Source: a virus
DNA: 39,669 bases
Direction: 5' to 3' (one strand)
Virus record (IMG/VR): IMGVR_UViG_3300035703_000191
Span: 1-39,669 of that record
Both the position numbers and the translations under genes were made by a program. Shown piece by piece: positions 1 through 34,469 of this stretch (position 1 is its first letter; each line of letters opens with the position of its first letter). The notes beneath the pieces were generated by a model that was not told the DNA's origin, made no database searches, and saw only the letters and a list, made by a program, of their open reading frames with translations.

Positions 1-156
1 ATGACACCAACGCAACGCCTAATGGCGGAAGCGCGGGCAAGTGAGTGGTTACTCGCTAGGGAAAGTGCTAAGGCACTATTCCAAGCCAACCTACTCGCAA
101 CCCCATGGCAACCCGCCACCAAGCAGACACGCCTCAAGGGGCTACAAGCAAGATGA
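1..156 (+). CDS. Hypothetical early protein, 51 aa
   Basis: The frame opens with ATG at base 1 and ends with TGA at 154-156. I do not recognise the product. It is a small, mostly helical, basic protein rich in Ala, Leu, Arg and Lys. If the window is circular, its ATG overlaps the TGA of the gene that starts at 39401 (ATGA across the junction), and its own TGA overlaps the next ATG at 153 the same way. This chain of four-base overlaps argues that it is translated by coupling, since no Shine-Dalgarno sequence precedes the ATG. A longer out-of-phase frame at 41-235 has no start signal and was not chosen. Confidence 0.6.
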   Translation: MTPTQRLMAEARASEWLLARESAKALFQANLLATPWQPATKQTRLKGLQAR

Positions 157-296
157 TTACGACATGGGATATGCTCGCTATCATCATCATACTATCGGTC
201 TCCACGACCCTAGTAATCACTACGGCTATCGCTAACGCGAAACTTACCCGCAGGGTGGAATACCTGCAACTACAACTTAATCGCCATGAGCGATAA
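153..296 (+). CDS. Small single-pass membrane protein, 47 aa
   Basis: The start is the ATG at 153, which overlaps the stop of the preceding gene (ATGA). A longer form from ATG 105 would overlap that gene by 52 bases and is less likely. Residues about 8-27 form one strongly hydrophobic helix rich in Ile, Val and Thr, followed by a basic, helical C-terminus with Leu at regular spacing (Arg-Arg-Val-Glu-Tyr-Leu-Gln-Leu). It is probably anchored in the inner membrane with a short cytoplasmic coiled segment. Function unknown; the early position suggests a host-takeover or exclusion role, which is inference only. Confidence 0.55.
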   Translation: MITTWDMLAIIIILSVSTTLVITTAIANAKLTRRVEYLQLQLNRHER

Positions 297-468
297 CCTA
301 CTACTAGACTTGACCCCGCGAGAGGTTGAAGTCATACGCATGGCACTACGCACCGAGCAAGAGAACCATAGGCGCAACGGCTTCATGGTACTAGCACAGG
401 AAGTAATGGTGTTACGCTCCAAGATAAGTGACGCTATCCTAGATAGCAAGAACTTGACAAAGGCATAA
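286..468 (+). CDS. Hypothetical helical early protein, 60 aa
   Basis: It starts at ATG 286 inside the end of the preceding gene and stops at TAA 466-468. The protein is predicted to be almost entirely helical, with charged residues and Leu/Ile/Val in heptad-like spacing after an N-terminal Leu-Asp-Leu-Thr-Pro-Arg-Glu segment. I see no catalytic motif. It is probably a small regulatory or protein-binding factor of the early operon. A frame on the other strand at 270-620 is a shadow. Confidence 0.6.
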   Translation: MSDNLLLDLTPREVEVIRMALRTEQENHRRNGFMVLAQEVMVLRSKISDAILDSKNLTKA

Positions 469-516
469 CACAATGCTATACTACACCTACAACATACAGG
501 AAGGGGGTGAGTGAAT

Positions 517-1827
517 ATGGAAGATAAAGAGCCTATCATATGTAGCCTATGTAGCGACATGATAGATGAAGGTGATGAACGCAACTTCGCTAACGGCGAT
601 ATTGCTTGCGAGAATTGCACAATATGGTGCGAGGATTGCGAGCAACTATCCTCGATAGATGACTCCGTTAATGACGGCAGTAACTACTATTGCTCAGACT
701 GCGGTAAGTTCTGCGAGCGTTGCCAAAATGCCTTCGCTGGCGAAGATTACTATGTAGACGGCGAGTCATGGTGCGAGTATTGCTACGAGAATTGCACCTT
801 CTACTGTGAGCCTTGTGGCACTAGTTATAGTGACCGAGACGACTACTTCATGGTAGATGATAATACATGGTGCGATAACTGCACTACCCGTTATGCGTGG
901 TACTGCAACGATTGTGACCAGTATAATCGTGAAGATAATGAGTGTAGCAACTGCGAGAGTGACGGAAGTGGAGTATCAGGTCGCTCATGCAGATGTCGCA
1001 ACATTATCCATGAATACTCATGCAAGCCACCGCTTGTATTTCATGGTCACTCCAAGCGTGGAGTCTATATGGGCTTCGAGTTGGAGACACAGATACATGG
1101 CAACATAGATACTGCCGCACAGTTCACTTCTCAAGCACTATCCAACGGAGATGTAGGTATCATCAAGTATGATGCCAGTATAAATCGTGACGGATATGGT
1201 GGCTTCGAGATAGTGACTCAACCACATACTCACTTGCAATATCGTGAGAATAGTGATATACTATGGGATACCATAAATAAACTACGCACCGAGCACAATG
1301 CTAGGTCATGGGATACCAAGTCATGCGGGCTACATATTCATGTCTCCCGCGAAGGCTTCAGTAGTGGCGCACACACGCACCGCTTCATATCCCTTGTCTA
1401 TTCCAACGCACCGCAGATGATGAAGTTTGCGGGTCGCAAGTCTGACTATGCTAGGTTCAATGATGTCTATACCTTCAATGAGTATGACATGCCAGTCAAG
1501 TCATTCAAGCACAAGGTAGGAGACCCACGCCGTCACCATACCGAGAGATATTCTGCGGTCAATACGCAGAACCAAGCCACACTAGAACTGCGGTTCTTCC
1601 GTGGCACTATGAACACCAGCACAATTCTATCAGCACTAGACCTAGTGCAAGCCATGGTAGAATATACTAGAGACCTACGACTTGATGAAGTCAAGTTGGG
1701 TGCGCTAGATTGGGCATGGTTCGCCGATTATGTACGAGATAATAACGGACTATATCCCGACCTATACTATCGACTCGACAAGATAGATAGTATCAACATA
1801 ACCAAGCCAACACTAGAGAATGCATGA
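517..1827 (+). CDS. Amidoligase (COOH-NH2 ligase family) with N-terminal zinc-ribbon array
   Basis: I chose ATG 517 (436 aa) because GGAAGGGGGTGA at 499-510 is well spaced for it; an in-frame GTG at 511 sits too close. Residues 9-146 carry ten CxxC pairs (for example 9/12, 31/34, 38/41, 59/62, 66/69, 86/89, 97/100, 119/122, 130/133, 143/146), with more Cys at 158, 160 and 169, so several zinc ribbons. From about residue 183 the glutamine-synthetase-like amidoligase core follows: GFELE 186-190, an Asp/Ser pair at 219/221, FEIVTQP 230-236, CGLHIHVSR 270-278, ERYSAVN 343-349 and ELRFFRGT 357-364. The family (Amidoligase_2) is predicted to join a carboxylate to an amine using ATP. The next gene is a glutamine amidotransferase, so the two probably act together. 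The substrate is unknown; the zinc ribbons may select a protein or nucleic-acid target (inference). Confidence 0.82.
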   Translation: MEDKEPIICSLCSDMIDEGDERNFANGDIACENCTIWCEDCEQLSSIDDSVNDGSNYYCSDCGKFCERCQNAFAGEDYYVDGESWCEYCYENCTFYCEPCGTSYSDRDDYFMVDDNTWCDNCTTRYAWYCNDCDQYNREDNECSNCESDGSGVSGRSCRCRNIIHEYSCKPPLVFHGHSKRGVYMGFELETQIHGNIDTAAQFTSQALSNGDVGIIKYDASINRDGYGGFEIVTQPHTHLQYRENSDILWDTINKLRTEHNARSWDTKSCGLHIHVSREGFSSGAHTHRFISLVYSNAPQMMKFAGRKSDYARFNDVYTFNEYDMPVKSFKHKVGDPRRHHTERYSAVNTQNQATLELRFFRGTMNTSTILSALDLVQAMVEYTRDLRLDEVKLGALDWAWFADYVRDNNGLYPDLYYRLDKIDSINITKPTLENA

Positions 1828-1835
1828 GGTGATGT

Positions 1836-2690
1836 ATGTGTATCCTTGTGGTGTGTGAACCTAATAGCACACCGACCAAGACAGACCTACACAATGGTGC
1901 TTGCAGTAACCCACATGGTTACGGCTTCGCCATTATCGCAGGAGATAAGATTATCTCCGAGCGTAGCATGTCTGCCAAGAAATCTATTGCGCGGTTCTTA
2001 GAACTACGCAAGCAGTACCCTAACGGCTACGCCATGTGGCATGCACGATACGCAACGCATGGTGTCAAGAACGAAGCCAACTGCCACCCATTTCAAGTCG
2101 GCGGTAGTGACTTGACATATCTAGCACACAATGGTATACTAGATGTAACAATTGACAAGGCAGACAAGCGTAGCGATACGCGTGTGTTTGCAGAAGATAC
2201 ACTCCCACTTATGGGTGGCGTATCAGTTCTAGATGACGATACAGTATGGACTATGGTTAGCAAGTGGGCTAGCGGTAGCAAGATATGTATCCTAACTCTA
2301 GACCCTAGTGCCAAGCACCAAATCTACCTAGTCAATGAGAATCTAGGTACATGGGATAACAATGGTGTATGGTGGAGTAATCAGTCGCACAAGCGCACGA
2401 CCTATACCGCACCAGCTCAAGTATGGTCAGCACCCAGTAGGGGCTTGGACGAATCCGAGCGACTAGCGTATGACTATGCACTCGAGCATTACTATAAAGA
2501 AGAAGGCGAAGAAGTATTAGATGTATGCCCTAACTGCGAAATGCTAACGGACATATACGAGAACCCATACTACTGCGTGGCGTGTGAGATTTGCTTCGAC
2601 TGTGATACCAATATCATAGACTGCCTATGCTACACACCCGACAAGAACTGGTCTACTAAGCGTGACCTTAGTGACTTGTTCATACTATAA
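1836..2690 (+). CDS. Class II glutamine amidotransferase with C-terminal zinc ribbon
   Basis: This 284-residue Ntn hydrolase begins Met-Cys, so removal of Met exposes the catalytic N-terminal cysteine, which fixes the start at ATG 1836 (SD GAGGTGAT just upstream). The family signature is complete: HGYGFA 27-32, HARYATHG 69-76, NCHPF 82-86, AHNGIL 97-102 and an SDT motif at 113-115. These residues bind glutamine and release ammonia. The glutaminase domain ends near residue 175. A Cys cluster follows (CPNC 231-234, then Cys 247/250, 253/256, 263/265), echoing the Cys-rich front of the amidoligase eight bases upstream. No synthetase domain is fused, so ammonia is presumably passed to the neighbouring amidoligase or another acceptor enzyme. 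Function of the pair is inferred. Confidence 0.88.
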   Translation: MCILVVCEPNSTPTKTDLHNGACSNPHGYGFAIIAGDKIISERSMSAKKSIARFLELRKQYPNGYAMWHARYATHGVKNEANCHPFQVGGSDLTYLAHNGILDVTIDKADKRSDTRVFAEDTLPLMGGVSVLDDDTVWTMVSKWASGSKICILTLDPSAKHQIYLVNENLGTWDNNGVWWSNQSHKRTTYTAPAQVWSAPSRGLDESERLAYDYALEHYYKEEGEEVLDVCPNCEMLTDIYENPYYCVACEICFDCDTNIIDCLCYTPDKNWSTKRDLSDLFIL

Positions 2691-2742
2691 TTCCACATGG
2701 AAAGTCCATGCTGGAGTAACACCAACTAACGAGAGGTAACAC

Positions 2743-3012
2743 ATGTCAGCAACACAGATTCAAGAAATCGCAGATGAAATTTCTGCGCTCGCTTCCGAGG
2801 TAGCATACCTCGCACTATCGGTAGACACTTCATCAGATTACCCTAAGCGTGGTACTGTGGTGAAGGCTCTGCCTACACAAAATCGTTTCAAGGCTAAGTC
2901 AATGTGGGTGTCGCTGGGCGACGGCACTTATAAGCACTTGACTGGTAGCAAGGGTCTCATCACCACCCATGCACGCCTTGACGGGTATGTCTCGACTGTA
3001 TTCGAGGCGTAA
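2743..3012 (+). CDS. Hypothetical early protein, 89 aa
   Basis: It starts at ATG 2743 behind AACGAGAGG (2728-2736), a leader sequence that recurs before two other early genes. The N-terminal 27 residues are an acidic helix; the remainder looks beta-rich, with a basic patch around the motif RFKAKSMWVSLGDGTYK. I do not recognise a family. It stands alone between two gaps of about 50 and 125 bases, so it may be separately translated rather than coupled. Confidence 0.7.
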   Translation: MSATQIQEIADEISALASEVAYLALSVDTSSDYPKRGTVVKALPTQNRFKAKSMWVSLGDGTYKHLTGSKGLITTHARLDGYVSTVFEA

Positions 3013-3136
3013 CCAACTGACCTGAGCATGTCATTAAACTGCTCACTAGAGTTACTGCCAGTGCTGCAGCGAGGCAAGTGCGTTCCTGAACATGAACTAA
3101 AACTGTTCATTATTTATATCAACGAGAGGATATACT

Positions 3137-3493
3137 ATGGCACGCAAACCTACACGCGCTGAAATTATCGAGACCAACGAGAACATGACACAGAAATGTG
3201 ACTCATGCTTCTTGGTCATGCACGCAGATAAATACTACGGCACATTCGATAACATGCTAACCTTCAGGGTAAGCGGTGGGTATGGCGAGTATGTAGATAC
3301 TATCTATCCCGATAGCAAGGAGTTCGAGTTCAACCTATGCCACAAGTGTGCGCATAGAATGATGAGCAAGTTCTTCCCGCACTACGACTTATCGGGCTGG
3401 CATCCACGCACAGATGATAAGTTCTGTAATGGTTGGCGACGACAAGATGTGCCACCATATAACCTATACAGTCACTACACGGAGGGAGATTGA
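3137..3493 (+). CDS. Zinc-binding hypothetical protein, 118 aa
   Basis: The ATG at 3137 follows AACGAGAGGA at 3121-3130. Two CxxC pairs (CDSC near residues 20-23 and CHKC near 73-76) are separated by about 50 residues in a beta-rich segment with a GGYGEYVD motif, the layout of a split treble-clef or zinc-ribbon fold. No catalytic residues are evident. It belongs to the run of Cys-rich small proteins in this operon; a role in binding host proteins or nucleic acid is possible. Confidence 0.75.
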   Translation: MARKPTRAEIIETNENMTQKCDSCFLVMHADKYYGTFDNMLTFRVSGGYGEYVDTIYPDSKEFEFNLCHKCAHRMMSKFFPHYDLSGWHPRTDDKFCNGWRRQDVPPYNLYSHYTEGD

Positions 3494-3496
3494 CTA

Positions 3497-3637
3497 ATGG
3501 CTAAGTATGTGGTACTATGTGAAGCAGAAGAATGCGAAGCAGAGAATGAGGAATGGGAAGATGACGGCTCAACATACTGGTTCACATGCTCAACATGTGG
3601 ATACGACAACGAGGTGGTGCATTCACCATGGAAATGA
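3497..3637 (+). CDS. Small acidic zinc-ribbon protein, 46 aa
   Basis: The ATG at 3497 has a strong SD (GGAGGGAG, 3480-3487). The 46-residue product has cysteines at 8 and 13 and a CSTC pair at 31-34, so a single zinc ribbon, in a very acidic context (EAEEC, AENEEWEDD). Its TGA at 3635-3637 overlaps the ATG of the WhiB gene (ATGA), so the two are translationally coupled. Function unknown. Confidence 0.65.
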   Translation: MAKYVVLCEAEECEAENEEWEDDGSTYWFTCSTCGYDNEVVHSPWK

Positions 3638-3972
3638 GTAACATGACAGGACTATGTACGACACACCCTAACCCCGAACTATGGTTCGAGGATTCAGGTG
3701 ACTTGTTCGAGAAGCGTTTAGGTAGCACCAACCCTAACAAGAAGTTCGAGGCACGACGAGCTAACATGCTTATTGCTATGGAGATATGTACCAAATGTCC
3801 GATTCGTACCAAATGTCTATCCGAAGGTATGAAAGAAGAGAACTTAGACTATGGCATATGGGGTGGCTTGCTTCCAGGTGAGCGCATTCTGCTAGCCGAT
3901 ACCTTCAAAGCGTCGACCGACAGGAAGGCACGCATACAGACGGCACTCAACATAAGGAGTTTAGTAAAATGA
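3634..3972 (+). CDS. whiB: WhiB-family iron-sulfur transcription factor
   Basis: The 112-residue product has the full WhiB signature: Cys8, then CTKC at 52-55 and Cys61 (CxxCx5C), which bind a 4Fe-4S cluster, followed by the GIWGG turn at 74-78 and a basic C-terminal tail (RKARIQ). Host WhiB proteins bind the principal sigma factor and adjust transcription. Phage copies are known from actinophages, and mycobacteriophage TM4 WhiB interferes with host WhiB2. The start at ATG 3634 gives a four-base overlap with the preceding gene; ATG 3628 is an alternative. The next gene overlaps its stop (ATGA at 3969). WhiB is essentially restricted to actinobacteria and their phages, so it is the best host marker in the window. 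Confidence 0.93.
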   Translation: MSNMTGLCTTHPNPELWFEDSGDLFEKRLGSTNPNKKFEARRANMLIAMEICTKCPIRTKCLSEGMKEENLDYGIWGGLLPGERILLADTFKASTDRKARIQTALNIRSLVK

Positions 3973-4358
3973 AAGCAATAGTATTCTTGCTGTTAGTGGT
4001 TGCAGGGTTCTTCCTGTTTGCCCCTCCATCAAACGCACCAACACAATTCAAGGGCGTGCAGAGTGAATGGAGTAAGGCAGACAGTAAGGCTTATGCCCGA
4101 GACCAACTAAGTGAGTGGCAAGAAGAGCAGTGGTCATGCCTTACCAGATTGTGGGGCAAGGAATCCGCATGGAATCCCGAGGCATACAATACCATCAAAG
4201 TTATGGGGAAGAACGCTGGTGGTATCCCACAACTGTTAGGGCTTGACCCTGCAACACCTCCAACGAGGCAGATAGAACGAGGGCTGTCTTATATCTACTA
4301 TAGATATGATACACCATGCAACGCATGGGCGTTCTTCAAAAGGAATAACTACCACTAA
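3969..4358 (+). CDS. Secreted lysozyme-like transglycosylase
   Basis: Residues 1-23 are a signal peptide or membrane anchor (hydrophobic core FLLLVVAGFFLF). The mature part resembles actinobacterial lysozyme-like muralytic domains: QWSCLTRLWGKES with the likely catalytic Glu65, GIPQ at 85-88, QIERGLSYIYYRY and a closing Cys117-Asn-Ala-Trp; Cys57 and Cys117 can form a disulfide. At 129 residues it is just the minimal catalytic domain. It sits in the early operon directly after WhiB, far from the lysis genes at 11.3-12.2 kb, so it is unlikely to be the endolysin. Cell-wall remodelling during infection or superinfection control is inferred. Confidence 0.78.
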   Translation: MKAIVFLLLVVAGFFLFAPPSNAPTQFKGVQSEWSKADSKAYARDQLSEWQEEQWSCLTRLWGKESAWNPEAYNTIKVMGKNAGGIPQLLGLDPATPPTRQIERGLSYIYYRYDTPCNAWAFFKRNNYH

Positions 4359-4576
4359 TGATAACTAAAGATAAGCGTACGATGTGCGACTCATGTGGCA
4401 AGGAGATTGTCGGTGAGGCAAACACAGTCGCTTCTATCCCTACTGGTTGGGGTAAGACAAGAAAGCCTACCCACTTCCACCTTACACCGCTTGATTGCGC
4501 TAACGCAACCGAGCCTGTAAAGATATACCATGTTAAGTCAGTTCACGCAAACGAGAGGAGAGGCAAGAGTGACTAA
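4358..4576 (+). CDS. Small zinc-ribbon protein, 72 aa
   Basis: It starts at ATG 4358, overlapping the preceding stop by one base (TAATG). One CDSC pair near residues 10-13 and a later His-x-His plus Cys (THFHLTPLDC) could bind one zinc. The rest is basic. It ends inside the start region of the next gene. No family recognised. Confidence 0.65.
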   Translation: MITKDKRTMCDSCGKEIVGEANTVASIPTGWGKTRKPTHFHLTPLDCANATEPVKIYHVKSVHANERRGKSD

Positions 4577-4796
4577 ACATATTACAGAGATGAAGCCTGA
4601 TTACACCAAGGCTATGGACATACGAGGTGAACCAACCTCAGTATGCCCTTGCGGGTGTGAGATATGGAATGTAAAGACTATGTTCGACAGCGACAATGGT
4701 GAGATTACTATGTACTTCCTAGACATGGAGTGCGCAGAGTGTGGTACACTAGCGACCGCACCAACACCACCTAACCTGGAGGAAGATTATGAATAG
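4569..4796 (+). CDS. Small zinc-ribbon protein, 75 aa (GTG start)
   Basis: I place the start at GTG 4569, which follows AACGAGAGGAGAGG (4550-4563) at a good distance; an upstream ATG at 4530 lies inside the preceding gene without an SD. The protein contains CPCGC near residues 26-30 and CAEC near 55-58, a classic two-knuckle zinc ribbon, with an acidic C-terminal tail (EEDYE). Probably a nucleic-acid or protein-binding adaptor; unproven. Confidence 0.68.
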   Translation: MTKHITEMKPDYTKAMDIRGEPTSVCPCGCEIWNVKTMFDSDNGEITMYFLDMECAECGTLATAPTPPNLEEDYE

Positions 4797-4938
4797 TCAT
4801 AAGTACCTACATGAACTAGTCAAAGAGCAGGAACGAAATCAAATTATCTCCGAGCTTGTGAGTTCATTTGAGCCTGACCCATGGAGATACTCTGAGCCAC
4901 CACAGTGGCCACTAACATTGGTAGCACCTGATGCCTAA
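4789..4938 (+). CDS. Hypothetical protein, 49 aa
   Basis: ATG 4789 follows GGAGGAAG (4778-4785) and overlaps the preceding stop by eight bases. The N-terminal half is an amphipathic helix (HELVKEQERNQIISELV), and the C-terminal half is rich in Pro and Trp. Nothing recognisable. Its end overlaps the next gene by eight bases, consistent with a tightly packed operon. Confidence 0.55.
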   Translation: MNSHKYLHELVKEQERNQIISELVSSFEPDPWRYSEPPQWPLTLVAPDA

Positions 4939-5107
4939 CTATGAGTATAAGTGTGACACCTGTGGCACATCAGAGGAACATCAGCGCAAGGTAGATGATA
5001 GAGATATCTATCCGCCTTGCCAATACTGCGCACAACCAACGCGTAGAGTAATCAATCCAACGCCAGTCAAGTTCAACGGGACTGGCTTCTATTCGACGGG
5101 AGGGTAG
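4931..5107 (+). CDS. FmdB-like zinc-ribbon protein, 58 aa
   Basis: The opening MPNYEYKCDTCG, the second pair CQYC at 30-33 and the ending VKFNGTGFYSTGG match the FmdB-type putative regulatory zinc-ribbon family, which is common in bacteria, especially actinobacteria. Members are about 60-110 residues and of uncertain biochemical role, often suggested as regulators. It overlaps the preceding gene by eight bases and lacks a strong SD of its own. Confidence 0.8.
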   Translation: MPNYEYKCDTCGTSEEHQRKVDDRDIYPPCQYCAQPTRRVINPTPVKFNGTGFYSTGG

Positions 5108-5108
5108 C

Positions 5109-5315
5109 ATGACGCACGATGAATTACTGGCGAAGATTAATGGTTATTCTTGTTGCTCAGGTGCACATGAGATAGCTCTTCGTGCAGTCGTAGGATTGCA
5201 TAAACCGATAGAAGGAAACGACCACCTATGTAGTGGGTGCTGGTTCGGGGACGGAATGATGTCCTACCCATGCTTAACTATTCAGGCTATCGAGAAGGAG
5301 TTAAGCGATGTTTAG
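5109..5315 (+). CDS. Cys-containing hypothetical protein, 68 aa
   Basis: ATG 5109 follows GGGAGGGTAGC. The 68-residue product has CC near 15-16, CSGC near 41-44 and another Cys near 55, so one metal site is plausible. The segment around HEIALRAVVGLHKP, then a central CSGCWFGDG and a C-terminal helix (TIQAIEKEL), has the look of small conserved actinophage proteins, but I cannot name a family. Confidence 0.65.
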   Translation: MTHDELLAKINGYSCCSGAHEIALRAVVGLHKPIEGNDHLCSGCWFGDGMMSYPCLTIQAIEKELSDV

Positions 5316-5583
5316 TTATATATTACAAGCAGCACTTCTTTGTGGGTGGATTGTAATGTTATTTTTCTTTGTTGGCAGGGCCTTAGATGGTGACGGGTTG
5401 CTGTACATCATTGGTGCTGCGGTAATGACTGTACTAACTGTTGCAGTTGTTATTGGGGCAGCCTCTCAAGAAGAGGAAGAAGGCCCTTGCTTGAAGAAAG
5501 AAACTAGCTATGCCTATAACGCAGGAACTAAAACTATGATGCCCTACACTAAATGTGTAGAGCGAGGGGAGTGGATTAAATAA
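5308..5583 (+). CDS. Two-pass membrane protein, 91 aa
   Basis: It has an AAGGAG SD and starts at ATG 5308, eight bases inside the preceding gene. Residues about 3-24 and 32-51 are hydrophobic helices separated by a GRALDGDG loop. After them comes an acidic EEEEG stretch and a region with two cysteines (PCLKK, TKCVE) that could form a disulfide if periplasmic. Function unknown; it may alter the host membrane early in infection. Confidence 0.7.
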   Translation: MFSYILQAALLCGWIVMLFFFVGRALDGDGLLYIIGAAVMTVLTVAVVIGAASQEEEEGPCLKKETSYAYNAGTKTMMPYTKCVERGEWIK

Positions 5584-5783
5584 TGGCAATGCAAGACTTG
5601 ACAGCAGAAGAAGTGACTGCTATCGTGCGTGAGCACGTGCCTAACTGGGCAGACTATGAGACTGAAGATGACTGCATTGCAGACAACATCGACATTCTCT
5701 TTGAGTATCTGTGGGAGGGCGAAGAGGGCCCACTAGAAGACTACGAATTCGATGACATCGAGGACGAGTTTATAGATGAGTAG
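5583..5783 (+). CDS. Very acidic small protein, 66 aa
   Basis: The ATG at 5583 overlaps the preceding TAA (TAATG). More than a third of residues are Asp or Glu, with the C-terminal half almost a polyanion (EGEEGPLEDYEFDDIEDEF). Such proteins can mimic DNA and inhibit DNA-binding host defences, or act as assembly cofactors; here that is inference only. This is the last gene of the rightward operon and its end overlaps the convergent sigma-factor gene by 14 bases. Confidence 0.7.
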   Translation: MAMQDLTAEEVTAIVREHVPNWADYETEDDCIADNIDILFEYLWEGEEGPLEDYEFDDIEDEFIDE

Positions 5784-6516: not shown

Positions 6517-6895
6517 TCTTGTATTTGCGGGTCATTGTAAGTAAATCTTCTACAGTAATCAGATAGCCCTTGCTCTTGTTAGGTGGAATCTCGCAAGAGA
6601 TTTCTCTGCCTAGTTCAAGCACACCCTTCTTAAGGATATGGGTCGGCACAATAAACACTGATTGTTCTAGCACGAACGCCCAGTATGCCGCTTCAGTAAC
6701 CATCAAACCTGACGGCTCCCAAGATTTAGACTTCATGAACCAACACTCTACCTCAATGTAAAGGTTGTTGGTAATCCACCACTTTCTGTCTCGCTTAACT
6801 TCAACAGTCTTGCCACCAGTAAGCAACTCTTCTACAAGTTTCTCACCTTTACGGCCATAGCCGAAGTCCAAATCAAAGGAACTCTTGTTAGTCAT
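6482..6895 (-). CDS. PD-(D/E)XK-like nuclease-fold protein, 137 aa
   Basis: The start FDLDFGYGRKGEKLVEELL, then VEVKRDRKW (Glu32-x-Lys34), NNLYIEVE and SGLMVTEAAYWAFVL, match a small phage family with the restriction-endonuclease-like fold: an N-terminal Glu, a beta-strand ExK and a late conserved Trp. The role is likely DNA processing, but the family is usually annotated as hypothetical. It overlaps the gene upstream by eight bases and the sigma gene downstream by 35 bases. Confidence 0.6.
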   Translation of the reverse strand: MTNKSSFDLDFGYGRKGEKLVEELLTGGKTVEVKRDRKWWITNNLYIEVECWFMKSKSWEPSGLMVTEAAYWAFVLEQSVFIVPTHILKKGVLELGREISCEIPPNKSKGYLITVEDLLTMTRKYKNEKVDDGLGAN

Positions 6896-7262
6896 TAGGC
6901 CAATGTCCTCTCAGTACTAGCAATCCTATGATTGCATAGTTAGCCATATCCTTGAAGGAATCCTCAAGGCTTTCGTGCTGTGGTCCTTTACTATTATCTA
7001 CTAGGTTATTGATACGTGCAAACTTATCCCACATGCGTACACGCAGGCCATTGATGGGCCCGCCTGGGCTCTTAGATATATTCGTTGGGCCGTAGTCTTC
7101 ATGCTTGCTAACAAGCAATCGATACAACTCATTGAATGTATCTTCCAAGTCATCTAGGAACTGAGCATCGGAATCTTTAACTGAAGTATCAGACTTTGGT
7201 TCTCCATGTGTGCTTGCGTCACCATAAAACCTTGACTCGCCAAGTACTGTATTATCTGCCAT
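6888..7262 (-). CDS. Nmad1-like (nucleotide-modification-associated) protein, 124 aa
   Basis: The C-terminal 80 residues contain HEDYGPTNI (54-62), GLRVRMWDKFARI (72-84) and HESLEDSFKDMANYAIIGL (96-114). This is the pattern of the Nmad1/DUF1599 family, found in many phages and predicted to be associated with modified nucleotides. The N-terminal 35 residues are polar and probably disordered. No obvious base-hydroxylating or thymidylate-synthase-like partner is present in the window, so the modification, if any, is unidentified. Confidence 0.72.
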   Translation of the reverse strand: MADNTVLGESRFYGDASTHGEPKSDTSVKDSDAQFLDDLEDTFNELYRLLVSKHEDYGPTNISKSPGGPINGLRVRMWDKFARINNLVDNSKGPQHESLEDSFKDMANYAIIGLLVLRGHWPND

Positions 7263-21388: not shown

Positions 21389-22117
21389 TTAGCCTTTCTT
21401 GTAACGCTTCGGTAAAACTAAATTAGATTCCTTCGGCTGCTCAGGAGCGCCAAAGAATGCTTTGTAATAATGTTCGTCAAACGAGAATCGCTTCATATGT
21501 GGAACAAGTGCTGAGGTATCACACCAAAGTGGGATTTCTGCTTTGCCACATAGAGCGAAGAAGTAAATGTCTTCTCCGATGAATGCTTTATCTGCACCCA
21601 TCTCTGTAAAGAATGGAACACCTGGTAGGGCTTCCATAATTTTTGTTACTACGCTTCGGTGCATTAGGACGAACCCCATACCCGCTGCTTCCACCTGGAT
21701 AAAAGAGTCTTTAGGAAGCGGATGGACACGCTTGATTCCAAGCCCACCATCTAGTTCAGCGAACATATAAACCGTTGGCATAGGTACCATCAGAGGCTCT
21801 TCAGGGTTATCTGTTGTGAAGTACACACCAGTCAGAAGAGGCTTTGAGTCCTTGTCCTTTTTGTCCCATAACTTTAAGAAGTTTTCTGGGCTAAGAACAA
21901 TGTCTGAGTCTACCCAAAGTAGCCACTCAGATATGTTCTGCTCGTACCAAAACTTAATTACTTTCTCACGCTGTCTGGCAATCTGATTGCCCTGACTGCG
22001 GATAGAAGTTTCAAACTTGACGCCAGACTTAAGGAGTACATCGGTAACTCCCTGCATAAACTTACCGTCTACGTCTCCGCCGTCACACCACGCTACTGCT
22101 ACTGTCTCTTGTTCCAT
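21389..22117 (-). CDS. GT-A glycosyltransferase-like protein, 242 aa
   Basis: WLLWVDSDIVL (residues 65-75) holds the DxD motif of GT-A fold glycosyltransferases, which binds metal and a nucleotide sugar. It is preceded by ARQREKVIKFWYEQ, as in family-2-like phage enzymes, and a late GEDIYFFALC segment supplies the catalytic acid. The gene sits between capsid-side small genes and tail genes rather than with DNA-modification genes, so the acceptor may be a virion protein or a host surface glycan. SD is TAGGGGACA. Confidence 0.72.
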   Translation of the reverse strand: MEQETVAVAWCDGGDVDGKFMQGVTDVLLKSGVKFETSIRSQGNQIARQREKVIKFWYEQNISEWLLWVDSDIVLSPENFLKLWDKKDKDSKPLLTGVYFTTDNPEEPLMVPMPTVYMFAELDGGLGIKRVHPLPKDSFIQVEAAGMGFVLMHRSVVTKIMEALPGVPFFTEMGADKAFIGEDIYFFALCGKAEIPLWCDTSALVPHMKRFSFDEHYYKAFFGAPEQPKESNLVLPKRYKKG

Positions 22118-27458: not shown

Positions 27459-28163
27459 TTACTTACCTAGCTTTCCAATAAAGTTAGCAAACTCAATGCT
27501 TTCTGCCTGTGCTAAATCTTCCTGAACTTCAGGTGCACCAGTTTCAATCTTCTGCTTAACCATGGCCTCAGCACCAGCTTGTGTGAATCCTGGTGTGTAT
27601 ACTGCTTTAGCTTCACCCTTAGGTGTAACAGTAGAACCCTTGTTAATGACAGCCTCTAATTCGCTGCGGCGAGCCGCAAACTCTTCAGCGTTAGGGTCAC
27701 GCCTTAGTGTTGACTGATATACACCACGGATAAGAGTATCGATAACTAACGGGTCCTGTAGTTGTACAGTAGTCTTTGGACCCTTGTATCCATCACCGTC
27801 AAGTCCTGGAATATAGTCAGCCTGTAGCTGCTGGTACAATTCACCAAAGGAACTTGCCTTTGATGTCATATCTCCATACTCAACTGTCAACGCAATCTTT
27901 GCTTCCTGCACTCCCTGTACTGGGCGTCCAAGCTTCTTAAGCATTGCAGCGATAGCTGACCATTGGTCACGGCTAAATGATGACAATAAGTCTACATCAG
28001 CCATGCCTCCAGCAAGTGGGTCTACCGTAATGCCGCGCTTTTTTAATTCAGCATTGATGCTATCCATAAATGGTTTTGACTGCATGGGGCTTTGTGTGGC
28101 CTGTGGGCTAGGTACAGCGCTAGGTAATCCCTGCTCTGAACCAGCTCCAATTCTATTTACCAT
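27459..28163 (-). CDS. Virion protein, 234 aa
   Basis: A Pro/Ser/Gln-rich N-terminus (about 30 residues) precedes helical segments (MDSINAELKKRGITVDPLAG; SSFSRDQWSAIAAMLKKLG) and a later LIRGVYQSTLRRDPNAEEF motif. That last motif resembles the DUF4214-type 'R.PD..G' lysozyme-adjacent loops, but this is weak. It overlaps the giant gene by one base, so the two are coupled and may act together. Confidence 0.58.
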   Translation of the reverse strand: MVNRIGAGSEQGLPSAVPSPQATQSPMQSKPFMDSINAELKKRGITVDPLAGGMADVDLLSSFSRDQWSAIAAMLKKLGRPVQGVQEAKIALTVEYGDMTSKASSFGELYQQLQADYIPGLDGDGYKGPKTTVQLQDPLVIDTLIRGVYQSTLRRDPNAEEFAARRSELEAVINKGSTVTPKGEAKAVYTPGFTQAGAEAMVKQKIETGAPEVQEDLAQAESIEFANFIGKLGK

Positions 28164-31100
28164 TATTCTTGCCCTTCGTATACAAAGTCAAACTTGTCAT
28201 TCTTGAAGTATCTGTCATGGAACTTAGCGAACTCAGTGTTCTGGGCACGCATAGCTGCCACGGTTGATGCAACTTCATCACGCAACCAGCTAACCTTCTT
28301 GGCATCGATAGTTGTATTCATAGCCTCTAGGCGCTTTGAAACATCATATCGGTACTGCATGTAGTTAAGGATAAGTTCCCACTTAGGTTGCTTTGAAAGA
28401 TTGTTCCATAGTTTATCGTCCTCGATAGCTACGGTCAATGCAATTACTGTGTCAGCCTGGCGGCTTCCAGCACCACCTTGAGCCTGCTTATCGTATTCGG
28501 TAAACCAGATAGGGTTATCCTTTTTCTGCGCTTCAACGAAGCCATCCACATACTTATTTACAATTGCCTGCCCATACTTACCTGTAGGGTCAATTGGGTT
28601 TGCTGCATTCTTTAGTTGCTCTTCAACGATTGATTGCAACTTAAAGAAGTCATTCCATCCCTTGCTGACTAAAGCGGAGCGGCCCTGCTGGAATGCATCC
28701 GCAGAATCTCTGAACCTCTTTGTTGTTCCAGGTATCTTTGTTCTGCTTAGATAAGCCTGAGCAGAAGAAGAGAACGCATAGTCTTCATCATTAAAGATTG
28801 AGCCAAGGGTGGTCAAGTCACCCTTCTCACCGATAGCTGAAACAATGTTTCGTATAGAATCTTTGTTACGCTTAATCAGGCTTACTGCTGTCTTGTCGGG
28901 GCGAATACCAGACACTGGGTCAGTAAGTCTCTCGGCAAGCATAAAGTATTCTGGGTACTTCTCCACGAACATCTCTGTTGCTTCAGCACCATAAGCATCC
29001 TGCATCTTGTTGAGGATATCTACATATCCACTAACAGCAGTAACCAATCGGCCCTGTACTGGTAGTGTGGATGCACTTAAGAAGCGCAGGATTGATGTGT
29101 AGAAAGACTTCTTCTCAGCCTGTACTGCAATCTCTGAGTACTCTTGAGCGTTTGGCTTGCGGCCATTATTGTCCTTGATGAACTGTACCATCTCAGTATC
29201 GATAAACATCTTAACATCTTTGTTAAACTGCTCACCGCTTTGAGAGAATCCAGCAGAAAAGACCTGAGATAGACGGCGAGCCGTGTTTGGAGTCAATGCA
29301 TTCAAAGAGTTCTGCTGCACACCAAATGGTAGAACCACGTCGATAAACCTATTTTCAATGTTCGTACGACGAGCAAACTCATTTACGCTTGCTGCTGCAA
29401 ATGGGTGGAACGAGATAATGTCGCCACCAGTTGGGTTATCTGGGTTGAACCAAGATGTAGGAATACGAGACTTTAGGCCGAAGTATGGTAGGTCAACTTC
29501 AAAGTACTGTGTACCATTTGAGTCTTCCTGTACATCTGAAATCATTTCTGGCAATGAAGCAAACTTGAGCTTCTTAACCAAGAAGTCAGGGTGTTCCATT
29601 GTGATTCGGCCGTACGCTCTGAACTGTTCTACTACCGCAGGGAAGAACGCTAGTAGATAGTTTGTCCATCCAGCGTAGTTCATGTTGCGGTGGAAGGAGT
29701 TAAGCTTCTCACGGTACTCACGTAGAGCAAACTCACGTGCACGCTGTTCAAAGCGAGCCTTATCCTTTGCAGTCAGTACGCGATTCTGGGAGTTAGCAAC
29801 CCATATCTGGGACTGCAATTCCTGCTCGTACTTAACTCTAAAGTATGGGTTAAATGCTAACTTAGATGTAGGCATAGTTGACAACCATGCAACCGCATCC
29901 TTAGTTAACTGACGACCCTGTGTATAAAAACCACTTGTTCCAATCATGTCATCAACCATGTCGCCAAATACTGGTGGACGCTGGTTAACATCTGGATATA
30001 GCTTCTTAAGTTCTAGGATAGATAGCTTGTCCTCAATAATCAGCTTCTTGAGCTGAGGTGTAGGAGCATACATATCTACAAGAGTCTTGACTCTTTCGTA
30101 TATTTCGATAGCATCGCTACGCTTAGCAGCGAATCGGTCCATATAACTGAAACCCTCGTTGCTCTTTAAGAAGCCCACAATAGTTGCATCGCTTCTTCCT
30201 TGAAGTACCATACGAGCTACTGGGTCAAAACGAATCTTGTCGTTAAGGATTTGCTCCCAAGCAAGGAGGTGGGTTGCCTCATCTGCTGGCAGAATAGCAC
30301 GTGAACCAGTACGGCTACGGCGTGCATTCTCAATAGCAAGTTCCTTGACGGATGCCATCGCTCGGCGAAGGTCATCCTTCTGTGTAATCTTGGACATAAA
30401 CAACTGGCCAAAGCGTCCCGCACCTGCAGCCTCGAATACTTCTCCGTCAACTTCAACTGTCTGTCTGCGAATTCTATTTGGCTTAATACCTTGAATCGCT
30501 GCATTCTCTCTAGCACGAAGCATCTTGATGTTGGACTCAATGGTTCGGTAATGTTCAACATCAACAAGCAAGCTTTCTTTAACTTTTTTTGCAGCCGACG
30601 AACCATCGTCAGACTTTACAAGAGCGTCCTTGTCAAAAATAAAACTTGGGTGCATCTCTGGGGGAATATATCCTTCGCCTACTGGCTTGCCAGATGTTGA
30701 ATCAACAAACTTAGTTTTTTTGTTGTTTTTAATCTGCTTAGGGTATCTTCCCTTTTGCACATCAACAACCATTTCACTCTTGTAACCCTTGACTACTCTT
30801 ACTGGAACGTAAGGAATGCCCTCGTCAATAGCAGCCTTGAGTCTATGGTTTCCTTCTCCAACAAAAGCTAGGCCAGTCTCATCATCGTATACCACCATGA
30901 TTGGGTCATTATACGGTTTGCCATTGTACTCTCTAATAGCAAAACCCTTGCCGTCACGAAGAGACTTTCTGTAACTAGCAACAGCCTCTAGGTTTCCAGG
31001 AGTATTTCCATTCATTCCCTCTAGGGCGGATGTCTTTACAAAACCAACCGTGCTTCTTGTTTTTGGCAATCCACCAGAACCGCCATCTTTATAATCTTGT

Positions 31101-33484
31101 AAATTAGGAAAAAATGGAGCCTTCTCGAAAGGTGGGTTTTTAGGGTCATAACCAGCAGCCTTAAGCTGTTTACCTAGGCTATTAAGAACGACCTGACGTG
31201 AATCAATTTCTTCACGCAAGAACGCAATATTCTTGTTCTTATCTAACTTACCACCAAGCCAGCGATTTGCACGCGTGACGGTGTTGCTTGTATTCAGGAT
31301 AGCATCGATAGCATCCTCGCCAAGCTTTGACCATACGTCAAACAGTACGGCATCCCCCCAGGCGCGAATGTGTGAATCCTTAATAACGTTAGCTGGGTAT
31401 CCAGTACGGAGCAATGTTCCTGTACGCCACAAACCATTGAGCTCGTCAGCAATCAAACGTGCCGCATCTTTAGTCTGCATCCCTATGGTTGCTGCTTGTC
31501 CGTTGCGCTTAGCAAATTCACCAAGTGCTTTGTCAACCATTGTCCAGTCTGGAAGCATGCTGCCATTGGCTAGCTGTGTAATAAGCTGAGGGTCGCTAAT
31601 CAAAGTCATAGGGTCTTGAGGGTCATTCATGTATCCCTCTTTGAAGCTGTTTGCGCGACGCGCTTCTACCTGAACTAGACGATGGTTGGTGATGTATGAT
31701 TCAATCGCATCATCAACAATCATAGGTGCAATCTTATGCTTGTTAGCTAGAAGCTTAAACCCAGTTGCAACGTATTCTTCAATAACAAGATTCTTTTCAG
31801 ACTCTGTTCGAGCTGTTGTCCACTTGTCAAATACTCTTACATTGTTGTCGGCAACAGATGCTCCGACCTTCTCTGCCTCGCGTAGGCTAGCAGCAATACG
31901 TGTGTTAGCAATTACTGGTTCATTATAGTTAACCACACCATTAGGGGCGTCGTTAGTAATTCTATCTACGCCACGGATGACTGGAGATAATGGGTTCTTT
32001 TGATAAGCCCACTGATATGCTCTACCAATTCCAGTTTCAGGAATAAAGTCTGATGTACCAGCAACAGAGCGAGCTGCAGTTTCCTTGGCAAAGTCATTGC
32101 GAATCTTCTCAATATAAGCCCAGCGAGATACGGTTCTATTCTTCATAGCCCCGTCTAACTGCAAAGCATCATCAAGCCACTGTGTTTCTTTACGTAGTGC
32201 TGCTGCTTCTGCCTTAACCAAATCAAGGTTATCGGTAAATCTCTTTGACAAAGGAATTAAATTACCCTTGTATTCAAAGTTAATGATGCCACCCTTGCTA
32301 ACCGACTGGATAGCATCTTCATATCTAGCAAACTCAGCAAATGTTGAGGCATGCTTTTGGGCTAACTCTTCGATAGCTGGGAGATATCCTCGACCAACTA
32401 GAAGCAGATTTCCGATTTCTTCAAAGCTTTTACCAGCAAATAGATGGGCAGATACCTGACCTATTTCGCTATCAAAGTCTTTGCGTGCACCAATTTCGTA
32501 GCCTTTGCTATTCTGAAAGAATTCAAAGACTGCCTTGTATGGTGTATCCTCACCAGCCATGGTACGCTTAATCAAATCTACATCTTCTTCAAGACGCTTA
32601 GCAACACGTTGTGCTTCATTAGCGCCGAATATCTTGCGCTGAAAACCAGTCATTGGTTCTGCAAGAGGGCGTACCCCAGCACTACGTACGGCAGCGCCCG
32701 TTAGTTTAGCAGCAGCAACGTCAGCACCAAATGCTAGTTCTGCGCCAAAGTTAAGAAATCCAGACGTGACGGCACCGATACCTTTACTGGTATCTCCCAT
32801 TGTCTTAAAGCCTGGAATCTGTGCAATAACGTTGCGAGTTACATCGCGGCCCAAGTTATATCTAACCTGACCAGCTTCACTTTCGGAAAACTTTGCAGAT
32901 GTGTTAAGAGTCTTGCTTAGCTGTGCACCAAACTCTGTTTCAGCTACATCGCGTTGAGCTTTACCAAGTAATGCTACACCGAGTGATGCACCAGCGATTG
33001 CTCCTGCTGGTCCAAGTGCTGAACCTAAGACACCACCAATAGCTCCACCTGCAAGCATAGTAAGACCAGTTAGCAGCCCCATGCCAGTGTTCTTTTCGCT
33101 TACGTCACGGACGAATGCATAGTTAGAACGAAAGTTTTTTGCACCAGCTTGGAGTAATGTTGTCGCTCCACCATTGGTTGCTTTGTCAATGCCGATAATT
33201 CCAAGGCCTGCACCTGCGCCTACGGCTGCTCCAACTGGTCCACCGACTAGGAGGCCGAGGGTTCCAGATGTGAGTACTGGGTTAAAGGTTGCCACATTCA
33301 CCGCAGTTTTGCGTACAGTTTCTACAGAATCATTCCAATGTCCTGGATTTTCTGGTAGTTTATTGGCAAGTTCCAGTGTGGTTCCGAAGCCGACACGGCC
33401 ACCAGTGACATCAGGTGGTAATGCTTTTGCGCCTCCGAGACCAAACTGAATCCCAGCCATTTTATCAAAGACATTTGGTGCCAT
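28163..33484 (-). CDS. Giant internal virion protein with ParB-like domain, 1773 aa
   Basis: Residues about 70-100 and 135-175 are Gly/Ala-rich hydrophobic helices (GTLGLLVGGPVGAAVGAGAG) that could insert into the host membrane. Residues about 815-905 form a ParB/sulfiredoxin-like domain, with GEGNHRLKAAIDEGIPYVPV at 876-895. A conserved block follows near 1230-1340 (FNPYFRVKYEQELQSQIW; NYLLAFFPAVVEQFRAYG). Size, membrane-like segments and place between portal and capsid fit a podovirus ejection protein delivered into the cell with DNA, in the style of polyvalent proteins. No peptidoglycan-cleaving motif was found. Confidence 0.68.
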   Translation of the reverse strand: MAPNVFDKMAGIQFGLGGAKALPPDVTGGRVGFGTTLELANKLPENPGHWNDSVETVRKTAVNVATFNPVLTSGTLGLLVGGPVGAAVGAGAGLGIIGIDKATNGGATTLLQAGAKNFRSNYAFVRDVSEKNTGMGLLTGLTMLAGGAIGGVLGSALGPAGAIAGASLGVALLGKAQRDVAETEFGAQLSKTLNTSAKFSESEAGQVRYNLGRDVTRNVIAQIPGFKTMGDTSKGIGAVTSGFLNFGAELAFGADVAAAKLTGAAVRSAGVRPLAEPMTGFQRKIFGANEAQRVAKRLEEDVDLIKRTMAGEDTPYKAVFEFFQNSKGYEIGARKDFDSEIGQVSAHLFAGKSFEEIGNLLLVGRGYLPAIEELAQKHASTFAEFARYEDAIQSVSKGGIINFEYKGNLIPLSKRFTDNLDLVKAEAAALRKETQWLDDALQLDGAMKNRTVSRWAYIEKIRNDFAKETAARSVAGTSDFIPETGIGRAYQWAYQKNPLSPVIRGVDRITNDAPNGVVNYNEPVIANTRIAASLREAEKVGASVADNNVRVFDKWTTARTESEKNLVIEEYVATGFKLLANKHKIAPMIVDDAIESYITNHRLVQVEARRANSFKEGYMNDPQDPMTLISDPQLITQLANGSMLPDWTMVDKALGEFAKRNGQAATIGMQTKDAARLIADELNGLWRTGTLLRTGYPANVIKDSHIRAWGDAVLFDVWSKLGEDAIDAILNTSNTVTRANRWLGGKLDKNKNIAFLREEIDSRQVVLNSLGKQLKAAGYDPKNPPFEKAPFFPNLQDYKDGGSGGLPKTRSTVGFVKTSALEGMNGNTPGNLEAVASYRKSLRDGKGFAIREYNGKPYNDPIMVVYDDETGLAFVGEGNHRLKAAIDEGIPYVPVRVVKGYKSEMVVDVQKGRYPKQIKNNKKTKFVDSTSGKPVGEGYIPPEMHPSFIFDKDALVKSDDGSSAAKKVKESLLVDVEHYRTIESNIKMLRARENAAIQGIKPNRIRRQTVEVDGEVFEAAGAGRFGQLFMSKITQKDDLRRAMASVKELAIENARRSRTGSRAILPADEATHLLAWEQILNDKIRFDPVARMVLQGRSDATIVGFLKSNEGFSYMDRFAAKRSDAIEIYERVKTLVDMYAPTPQLKKLIIEDKLSILELKKLYPDVNQRPPVFGDMVDDMIGTSGFYTQGRQLTKDAVAWLSTMPTSKLAFNPYFRVKYEQELQSQIWVANSQNRVLTAKDKARFEQRAREFALREYREKLNSFHRNMNYAGWTNYLLAFFPAVVEQFRAYGRITMEHPDFLVKKLKFASLPEMISDVQEDSNGTQYFEVDLPYFGLKSRIPTSWFNPDNPTGGDIISFHPFAAASVNEFARRTNIENRFIDVVLPFGVQQNSLNALTPNTARRLSQVFSAGFSQSGEQFNKDVKMFIDTEMVQFIKDNNGRKPNAQEYSEIAVQAEKKSFYTSILRFLSASTLPVQGRLVTAVSGYVDILNKMQDAYGAEATEMFVEKYPEYFMLAERLTDPVSGIRPDKTAVSLIKRNKDSIRNIVSAIGEKGDLTTLGSIFNDEDYAFSSSAQAYLSRTKIPGTTKRFRDSADAFQQGRSALVSKGWNDFFKLQSIVEEQLKNAANPIDPTGKYGQAIVNKYVDGFVEAQKKDNPIWFTEYDKQAQGGAGSRQADTVIALTVAIEDDKLWNNLSKQPKWELILNYMQYRYDVSKRLEAMNTTIDAKKVSWLRDEVASTVAAMRAQNTEFAKFHDRYFKNDKFDFVYEGQE

Positions 33485-33926: not shown

Positions 33927-34469
33927 CTATTTAGAATGCTTAAATTGTGTTTTAGATATGTAAGGACCTGATGTAAATGCTGATACTTGAGATGCAATAT
34001 CCATCGCTTCGTATGCATCCGCTCCTGCGTATAGTGCACCTATTGCAAAATACGCTCCGCTGCCTGCTGCATATACGCCAGATTCATTCTGACTTACGCT
34101 AAGCTCGTCATCAATATCAAAGATTTCGCCACATACTGCAATCAGAAACTGGAATCTCTGCTCAGTCTTAGGCTCGTCAAAGTTGAATCCATTAGCAGAT
34201 AGAGTTCTGCGTAAAGATGGCATTGCTTTAGAAATCATGAAGTGGTACAAATCGGACTTATCCGACTTTGTGGGAGTTGGTGGGTCCCATATATGCTGTG
34301 CCACATCGCAAGGTAATACCTCGCCAGAACCTGCGATTAAATAACCGTTGCGCTCTGAAATCTTTTTTGTATTAGGATGCTTATAGATATAACCAGAATC
34401 ATCAGTAGTTTGGCTGTCAGCAACTAAGATGCAATCTTTATCGTATTGAATGCCGATAATCGTTGTCAT
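33927..34469 (-). CDS. Proteasome/HslV-like Ntn-hydrolase protease, 180 aa
   Basis: After loss of Met the N-terminal Thr becomes the nucleophile (TTIIGIQYDKDCILVADSQTT). The order Thr1, Asp17 and a KKI lysine near 34-35 matches HslV, where TT, D17, DGQAT and KKV fill the same places, with a two-residue insertion. YLIAGSGE and AAGSGAYFAIGALYAG plus YEAMDIASQVS match the later HslV strands and helix. It lies just after the portal gene, where phages carry the prohead protease, so capsid or scaffold maturation is the likely role. No HslU-like ATPase is present in the window. Confidence 0.85.
   Translation of the reverse strand: MTTIIGIQYDKDCILVADSQTTDDSGYIYKHPNTKKISERNGYLIAGSGEVLPCDVAQHIWDPPTPTKSDKSDLYHFMISKAMPSLRRTLSANGFNFDEPKTEQRFQFLIAVCGEIFDIDDELSVSQNESGVYAAGSGAYFAIGALYAGADAYEAMDIASQVSAFTSGPYISKTQFKHSK

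Follow-up and report, generated by a model that had tools for sequence, protein, structure and literature searches.

Which reaction is carried out by the products of two adjacent genes near the left end of a phage genome, one a predicted amidoligase and the other a predicted glutamine amidotransferase, and on which substrate would they act? The window, that is, the whole virus record of 39,669 bases analyzed here, also encodes a terminase, a portal and a major head protein, a DnaB-like helicase, a primase, WhiB and a sigma-like factor, and its WhiB gene suggests an actinobacterial host. We consider it somewhat probable that the two proteins are the subunits of a glutamine-dependent amidotransferase that amidates a target carboxylate.

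Gene Layout of the Window

The ligase reading frame opens at GTG 511 or ATG 517 and is separated by 8 bp from that of the amidotransferase, giving predicted products of 436-438 and 284 aa, respectively (Table 1). ATG 517 is the likelier start, as it follows an AAGGGGG ribosome site at a distance of about 8 nt, compared with only 2-3 nt for GTG 511. Both genes show purifying selection (dN/dS about 0.09-0.22, compared with relatives at 75-87% identity). The pair belongs to a plus-strand block (about 41-5783) running opposite to the replication and structural genes and has a promoter-like sequence just upstream, indicating that the two may be early genes, although the promoter-like sites of the region do not exceed the number expected by chance and this site is weak when taken alone. 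Neither the 60-aa ORF before the pair nor the 89-aa ORF after it matched Pfam or PHROG.

Table 1. Features of the window and of the related clostridial loci.
Feature	Position	Strand	Basis
Zinc-ribbon amidoligase (Amidoligase_2; predicted glutamine-synthetase-like ATP-dependent carboxylate-amine ligase)	517..1827	+	Profiles, fold, conserved columns
Putative N-terminal zinc-ribbon region, ten CxxC pairs, LIM/treble-clef-like in model	541..954	+	Cys pattern, model
Predicted ligase catalytic core: GFELE, KYDAS, GFEIVT, GLHIHV, LELRFFR motifs (aa 185-385)	1063..1665	+	Invariant columns
Predicted class II (Ntn-type) glutamine amidotransferase: Cys2 nucleophile, HARYATHG, HNG, SDT motifs	1836..2690	+	Profiles, alignment, fold
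Amidotransferase C-terminal Cys cluster (CPNC...CVACEICFDC)	2526..2603	+	Alignment, shuffle test
Promoter-like TTGACA-17-TATACT, TG before -10, just upstream of ligase gene	454..482	+	Consensus scan, 11/12 matches
60-aa ORF upstream of pair, position conserved	286..468	+	Homologues in 52/69 related phage loci
89-aa ORF after pair in most relatives	2743..3012	+	60/69 related phage loci
Butyricicoccus pullicaecorum unit copies	L151:5623-8151, L156:7-2534, L170:7-2520, L171:2799-5318, L174:5605-8129		
Tiny peptide gene	L151:8087-8161; equivalents in L160, L163, L182, L185, L198, L004, L192		

Elsewhere in the window, the minus strand encodes a proteasome/HslV-like peptidase just downstream of the portal gene (33927-34469; phrog_1040, E 5e-26), which is perhaps the prohead protease, a single ORF of 1773 aa between the HslV-like gene region and the head genes (28163-33484), and a glycosyltransferase-like gene near tail-related genes (21389-22117; phrog_34859, E 9e-73). 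A DUF1599 domain (nucleotide-modification-associated, E 1e-6) was also detected among the window proteins, probably in the minus-strand ORF 6888-7262. An encoded domain of this kind would suit a pair that amidates a carboxylated base in the phage DNA; however, the family lists of the window proteins contain no base hydroxylase, thymidylate-synthase-like or other hypermodification gene, and we regard DNA base modification as extremely unlikely.

The Two Enzyme Families

The first-pass annotation had read the two products as an amidoligase with ten CxxC pairs ahead of its catalytic domain and a class II glutaminase with all catalytic residues and a Cys cluster of its own, and profiles, alignments and models support both predictions. 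The ligase matched Pfam Amidoligase_2 (PF12224) at E 3e-7 and 31 bits, above the cut-off of 22, while a search of NCBIfam gave no ligase match. The best PHROG matches of both proteins were far better than those to Pfam (1.8e-25 for the ligase and 1.9e-37 for the amidotransferase) and were to families of unknown function. In an alignment of 48 ligase relatives, E190, E192, D221, E233, H275, E359 and R361 are invariant and H277 nearly so, and the metal/ATP motifs of Amidoligase_2 (ExE, HxH, and ExR) are conserved in the window ligase. Loss of the GFELE, HIHV and ELRFFR residues had been named as evidence against the assignment; all are conserved in the alignment, and the assignment is thus not refuted. 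AlphaFold models were built from the alignments of 48 ligase and 46 amidotransferase relatives. The nearest PDB folds to the ligase model (mean pLDDT 84.8) are YbdK-type ligases (Foldseek E 3.5e-6), glutamine synthetase (7.6e-5) and the Pup ligase/deamidase PafA/Dop, with gamma-glutamylmethylamide synthetase also among the matches. The TM-scores of the 21 matches with E <= 0.001 are low (0.26-0.34 by query length), and the family assignment is taken from the profile and the motifs.

For the amidotransferase, the match to GATase_4 was above the Pfam cut-off (E 1.7e-5) and that to GATase_6 just below (E 2.8e-5), and the NCBIfam matches to GlmS/PurF were sub-threshold only. Eight residues, C2, H69, R71, T74, G76, N99, G100, and D114, are invariant in 46 relatives, and they include the class II hallmarks, namely the N-terminal Cys nucleophile C2 and the glutamine-holding R71, N99, G100, and D114. 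The model (mean pLDDT 83.5) is closest to the glutaminase domain of GlmS (Foldseek E 4.9e-8), with a profile match to 1xff at E 9.5e-6, and EgtC and PurF are also found among the structural matches. At the sequence level, the amidotransferase is most similar to glutaminase domains that donate ammonia, such as that of GlmS.

The match to EgtC raises the main alternative, since hydrolysis of gamma-glutamyl compounds is another possible activity of class II folds, which is a point against a two-subunit amidotransferase. The ligase would then attach glutamate (alternatively, it would join an amine to glutamate), and cleavage of the gamma-glutamyl group by the class II protein would follow, as reportedly occurs with EgtA/EgtC in ergothioneine synthesis and PuuA/PuuD in putrescine use. 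EgtC, whose class II fold cleaves gamma-glutamyl amides, together with YbdK and gamma-glutamylmethylamide synthetase on the ligase side, are the structural matches that agree with such a ligase and hydrolase, and residues that hold glutamine would hold a gamma-glutamyl group too. On the other hand, the partner resembles the GlmS and PurF domains in sequence, not EgtC, and neither a gamma-glutamyl cyclotransferase nor a COOH-NH2 ligase companion gene was found in the related phages. We therefore judge the gamma-glutamyl scheme to be unlikely.

Inheritance of the Two Genes as One Unit

Lack of association of the two genes across relatives had also been named as an outcome that would speak against the first reading, but the association is widespread. 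We gathered 117 viral loci with either protein as query, and wherever these contained enough sequence both genes were present, in constant order, leaving no informative viral exception. As the viral loci are interrelated and were picked by one of the two genes, a bacterial set of 80 loci, collected with the ligase as sole query, provides the better test. Leaving out L141, whose sequence ends too early, the amidotransferase was found in 76 of the 79 informative bacterial loci (66 by tblastn with a clostridial amidotransferase and 10 more by profile), and in most of the bacterial loci it is the next gene after the ligase. Neither tblastn nor the profile detected it in the remaining three (L138, L139, and L200). 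Besides Clostridia, the pair is present in a Lokiarchaeota bin and a Phycisphaerales bin as well as on the Mycobacterium abscessus plasmid pGD21-2. Moreover, the divergence of the ligase mirrors that of its partner, with mirror-tree (Mantel) correlations of 0.895 for 64 viral and 0.946 for 27 bacterial loci, exceeding all 999 permutations; common ancestry of the host elements accounts for part of this correlation. These comparisons of sequences point to a real, co-inherited unit that is widespread in phages and bacterial mobile DNA, and they support the functional link that the first-pass annotation had drawn between the two genes.

The few relatives in which the ligase has no partner are a second point against a two-subunit enzyme; in addition to L138, L139, and L200, they include the Clostridioides difficile phage AR1086-1 (L006), in which the amidoligase lacks zinc ribbons as well as an adjacent amidotransferase and is followed by an unrelated gene. 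An apparent natural fusion of ligase and amidotransferase in an Atopobiaceae bin (L142) was rejected as a frameshift artefact, because L134, which is very similar to it, encodes the two proteins in separate genes that overlap. L124 (RFQY01000240.1), a contig of 3.3 kb assigned to a Rhodobacteraceae bin, encodes a ligase 47% identical to the phage one and is probably a phage contig put in the wrong bin.

Zinc Ribbons and Cys Clusters

The ten CxxC pairs of the window ligase lie at aa 11-148 (numbered from GTG 511). The first 185 aa hold 24 Cys, and when this segment was shuffled 10,000 times, it contained 3.0 CxxC on average and at most 10. In the model, this front part resembles LIM zinc domains. 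At aa 231-256, the amidotransferase carries four CxxC that overlap (shuffle P = 0.0008). Zinc binding is suggested by the Cys pattern, and a role of the putative ribbons in target recognition is plausible. The heavy decoration of both partners, which had been pointed out at first, was thus confirmed in the form of CxxC pairs, but the ligase ribbons are not special to this phage: the number of CxxC is mostly 8-10 in viral and mostly 6-10 in bacterial relatives, indicating that the ribbons are an old trait of the ligase subfamily. In contrast, the C-terminal Cys cluster of the amidotransferase is found in 111 of 112 viral relatives and in only 3 of 63 bacterial ones, and is largely an actinophage feature.

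Proposed Reaction

The enzyme assignments and the functional link are supported on several grounds: profile matches, modelled folds, the invariance of catalytic residues, the association of the genes and their mirrored divergence. If the two proteins do form one glutamine-dependent amidotransferase, the class II subunit would lose Met1 and, with the cysteine now at its N-terminus, hydrolyze glutamine and release ammonia. The glutamine-synthetase-like subunit would use ATP to activate a carboxyl group, presumably by forming an acyl phosphate. The ammonia would then be passed on and joined to the activated carboxyl, yielding an amide. The putative zinc ribbons of both proteins would most likely serve to bring the subunits together, to hold the substrate, or both. 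We think that this substrate would be a protein, a peptide or a cell-wall precursor from the host rather than a free small metabolite.

Clostridial Mobile Units and a Tiny Peptide Gene

The pair also occurs in Butyricicoccus, Flavonifractor, Agathobaculum and other Clostridia, where a zinc-ribbon ligase is directly followed by a class II amidotransferase, as in the window. In this clostridial version, a DUF960 or DUF3846 gene is often nearby, a tiny hydrophobic peptide gene is often behind, the amidotransferase mostly lacks the Cys cluster, and recombinase genes are frequent in the surroundings. Butyricicoccus pullicaecorum DSM 23266 contains five copies of a unit of about 2.5 kb, 86-88% identical and with unrelated flanks, consisting of DUF960, the zinc-ribbon ligase, the class II amidotransferase and the tiny peptide gene, with no transposase inside. 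A promoter-like sequence and an inverted repeat, GCCGAAGGA...TCCTTCGGC, lie near the start of the unit. Repeated units of a similar kind were observed in B. faecihominis (L160/L163) and Agathobaculum (L153/L168). We also considered an association with defence islands, but PADLOC matches, counted from the neighbour set alone, were few and scattered among 125 neighbour genes. The Pfam list of the neighbour genes is led by resolvase, integrase, RecT, and YqaJ, which favours an association with mobile DNA over one with defence.

In 18 of 71 loci, the amidotransferase gene is followed by a small ORF (22-35 aa) that has a ribosome site, a hydrophobic stretch and mostly an acidic tail; among the other genes of these loci, 4 of 316 are followed by such an ORF. 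The Butyricicoccus peptide (L151) reads MGLGTILVVIGEIIDLLEDEDDSCN, and its ORF differs between L151 and L171 by 11 synonymous and 3 non-synonymous codons, indicating purifying selection. In phages, no such gene was found behind the pair in any of 109 viral loci, and the window phage is likewise without one; a small membrane ORF of the window (105-296) was rejected as an equivalent, being found in only 9 of 69 relatives. The tiny peptide may be a substrate of the ligase and amidotransferase, and the repeated compact clostridial unit that often ends in its gene may be new. Hence, we speculated that the pair is a mobile peptide- or protein-amidating system, in which the clostridial operon carries its own hydrophobic, acidic-tailed peptide substrate and the phage version is aimed at a host or phage protein. 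Although we rate this extension as quite unlikely, it would, if true, represent an unrecognized post-translational system for carboxyl amidation that shares a related fold with Pup ligation.

Possible Roles and Comparison With Known Systems

Competing guesses on the pair (cell wall, metabolites, and nitrogen use) have been standing since 2009. Actinobacterial peptidoglycan is amidated at Glu and Dap, and the pair might modify host cell wall precursors, by amidation or added peptide links, and so block superinfection, a role that we find possible but doubtful and that is compatible with a two-subunit amidotransferase. The window has a weakly transglycosylase-like gene (3969-4358) and CHAP/NlpC-type proteins, though these are usual phage genes, and a cell-wall role was proposed for homologous cassettes of phiEco32 and RIO-1-like phages, as quoted in three reports (PMC10580990, PMC5498523, PMC11318856). 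The first of these credits Iyer et al. (2009) with the idea that genes of this type alter the cell wall and keep out other phages, and the Marvin genome paper (Mageeney, 2012) with a proposal involving secondary metabolites and phage-host interaction (PMC10580990). However, the COOH-NH2 ligase and GGCT companions of RIO-1/LUZ24 were not found here, and zinc ribbons have no obvious use on lipid-linked sugars; our literature search found no test of this role in any phage. Alternatively, the pair could make a small amide that aids the ammonium use of the infected cell, as argued for Phage-ZRK32; growth promotion is reported for a phage whose genes include an amidoligase, an amidotransferase, a glutathione synthase and a GGCT (PMC10945688). 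The available part of that report describes no single-gene test, and primary metabolism is not what the zinc ribbons and the broad distribution in mobile DNA would suggest. We consider a nitrogen role very unlikely.

A phage amidoligase and amidotransferase system had initially been taken to be new, yet the pair was already reported in Marvin (gp105/gp106), in the OM43 phages MEP401/402 and in LUZ24-like phages, with roles proposed (PMC10580990, PMC5498523, PMC3890496); in the literature, we found neither a biochemical test of the pair nor a report of its substrate. In LUZ24-like and RIO-1-like phages, it is part of larger cassettes (PMC3890496, PMC5498523). As in the window, LUZ24 gp18/gp19 and UFV-P2 have an Amidoligase_2 gene adjoining, or one gene away from, a class II amidotransferase gene, before primase/helicase, and LUZ24-type amidotransferases end in a Cys-rich stretch, whereas the LUZ24-type ligase lacks the zinc ribbon and was not matched by the ligase profile made here. 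Further members of the LUZ24/phiEco32/RIO-1 cassette are a COOH-NH2 ligase, an ATP-grasp enzyme and GGCT. The COOH-NH2 ligase (PF14395) was absent from the window and its relatives while being found in the LUZ24 positive control, and gamma-glutamyl cyclotransferase (PF06094) was found in 0 of 16 related phage records and had no match among the window proteins scanned; a search for a RimK-like ATP-grasp enzyme gave no match here and likewise none in the LUZ24 control. With these two companion genes (PF14395, PF06094) missing, we rejected membership in the full "peptidoglycan modification cassette."

The Methylophilales (OM43) phages MEP401/402 also have adjacent ligase and amidotransferase genes ahead of primase and helicase (PMC10580990), but their ligase has only 2 CxxC before the catalytic motif, and identities to the window proteins are 25 and 34%. 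In its modelled core fold, the ligase resembles PafA/Dop, YbdK, and glutamine synthetase at low sequence identity (9-15%); to our knowledge, none of these has zinc ribbons or a partner glutaminase.

The nearest relative in a named phage appears to be Marvin gp105/gp106, making the window pair one more case of a known pairing. Both Marvin gp105 (L001:8971-10332) and gp106 are annotated "glutamine amidotransferase domain protein," gp105 also in most relatives of Marvin; gp106 is the amidotransferase, whereas gp105 is in fact the amidoligase and thus misnamed. Marvin and other Marvinvirus pairs share with the window the gene order, the N-terminal CxxC ribbons of the ligase and the C-terminal Cys cluster of the amidotransferase, at identities to Marvin of 30% (ligase) and 35% (amidotransferase), but the Marvin ligase has 4 instead of 10 CxxC before its GxELE motif and a longer C-terminus. 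What is added here is that the zinc-ribbon ligase and its partner form one co-inherited unit, common to freshwater and mycobacterial phages and to repeated units of gut Clostridia, which narrows the question to one enzyme class and offers compact test systems, including a candidate peptide substrate.
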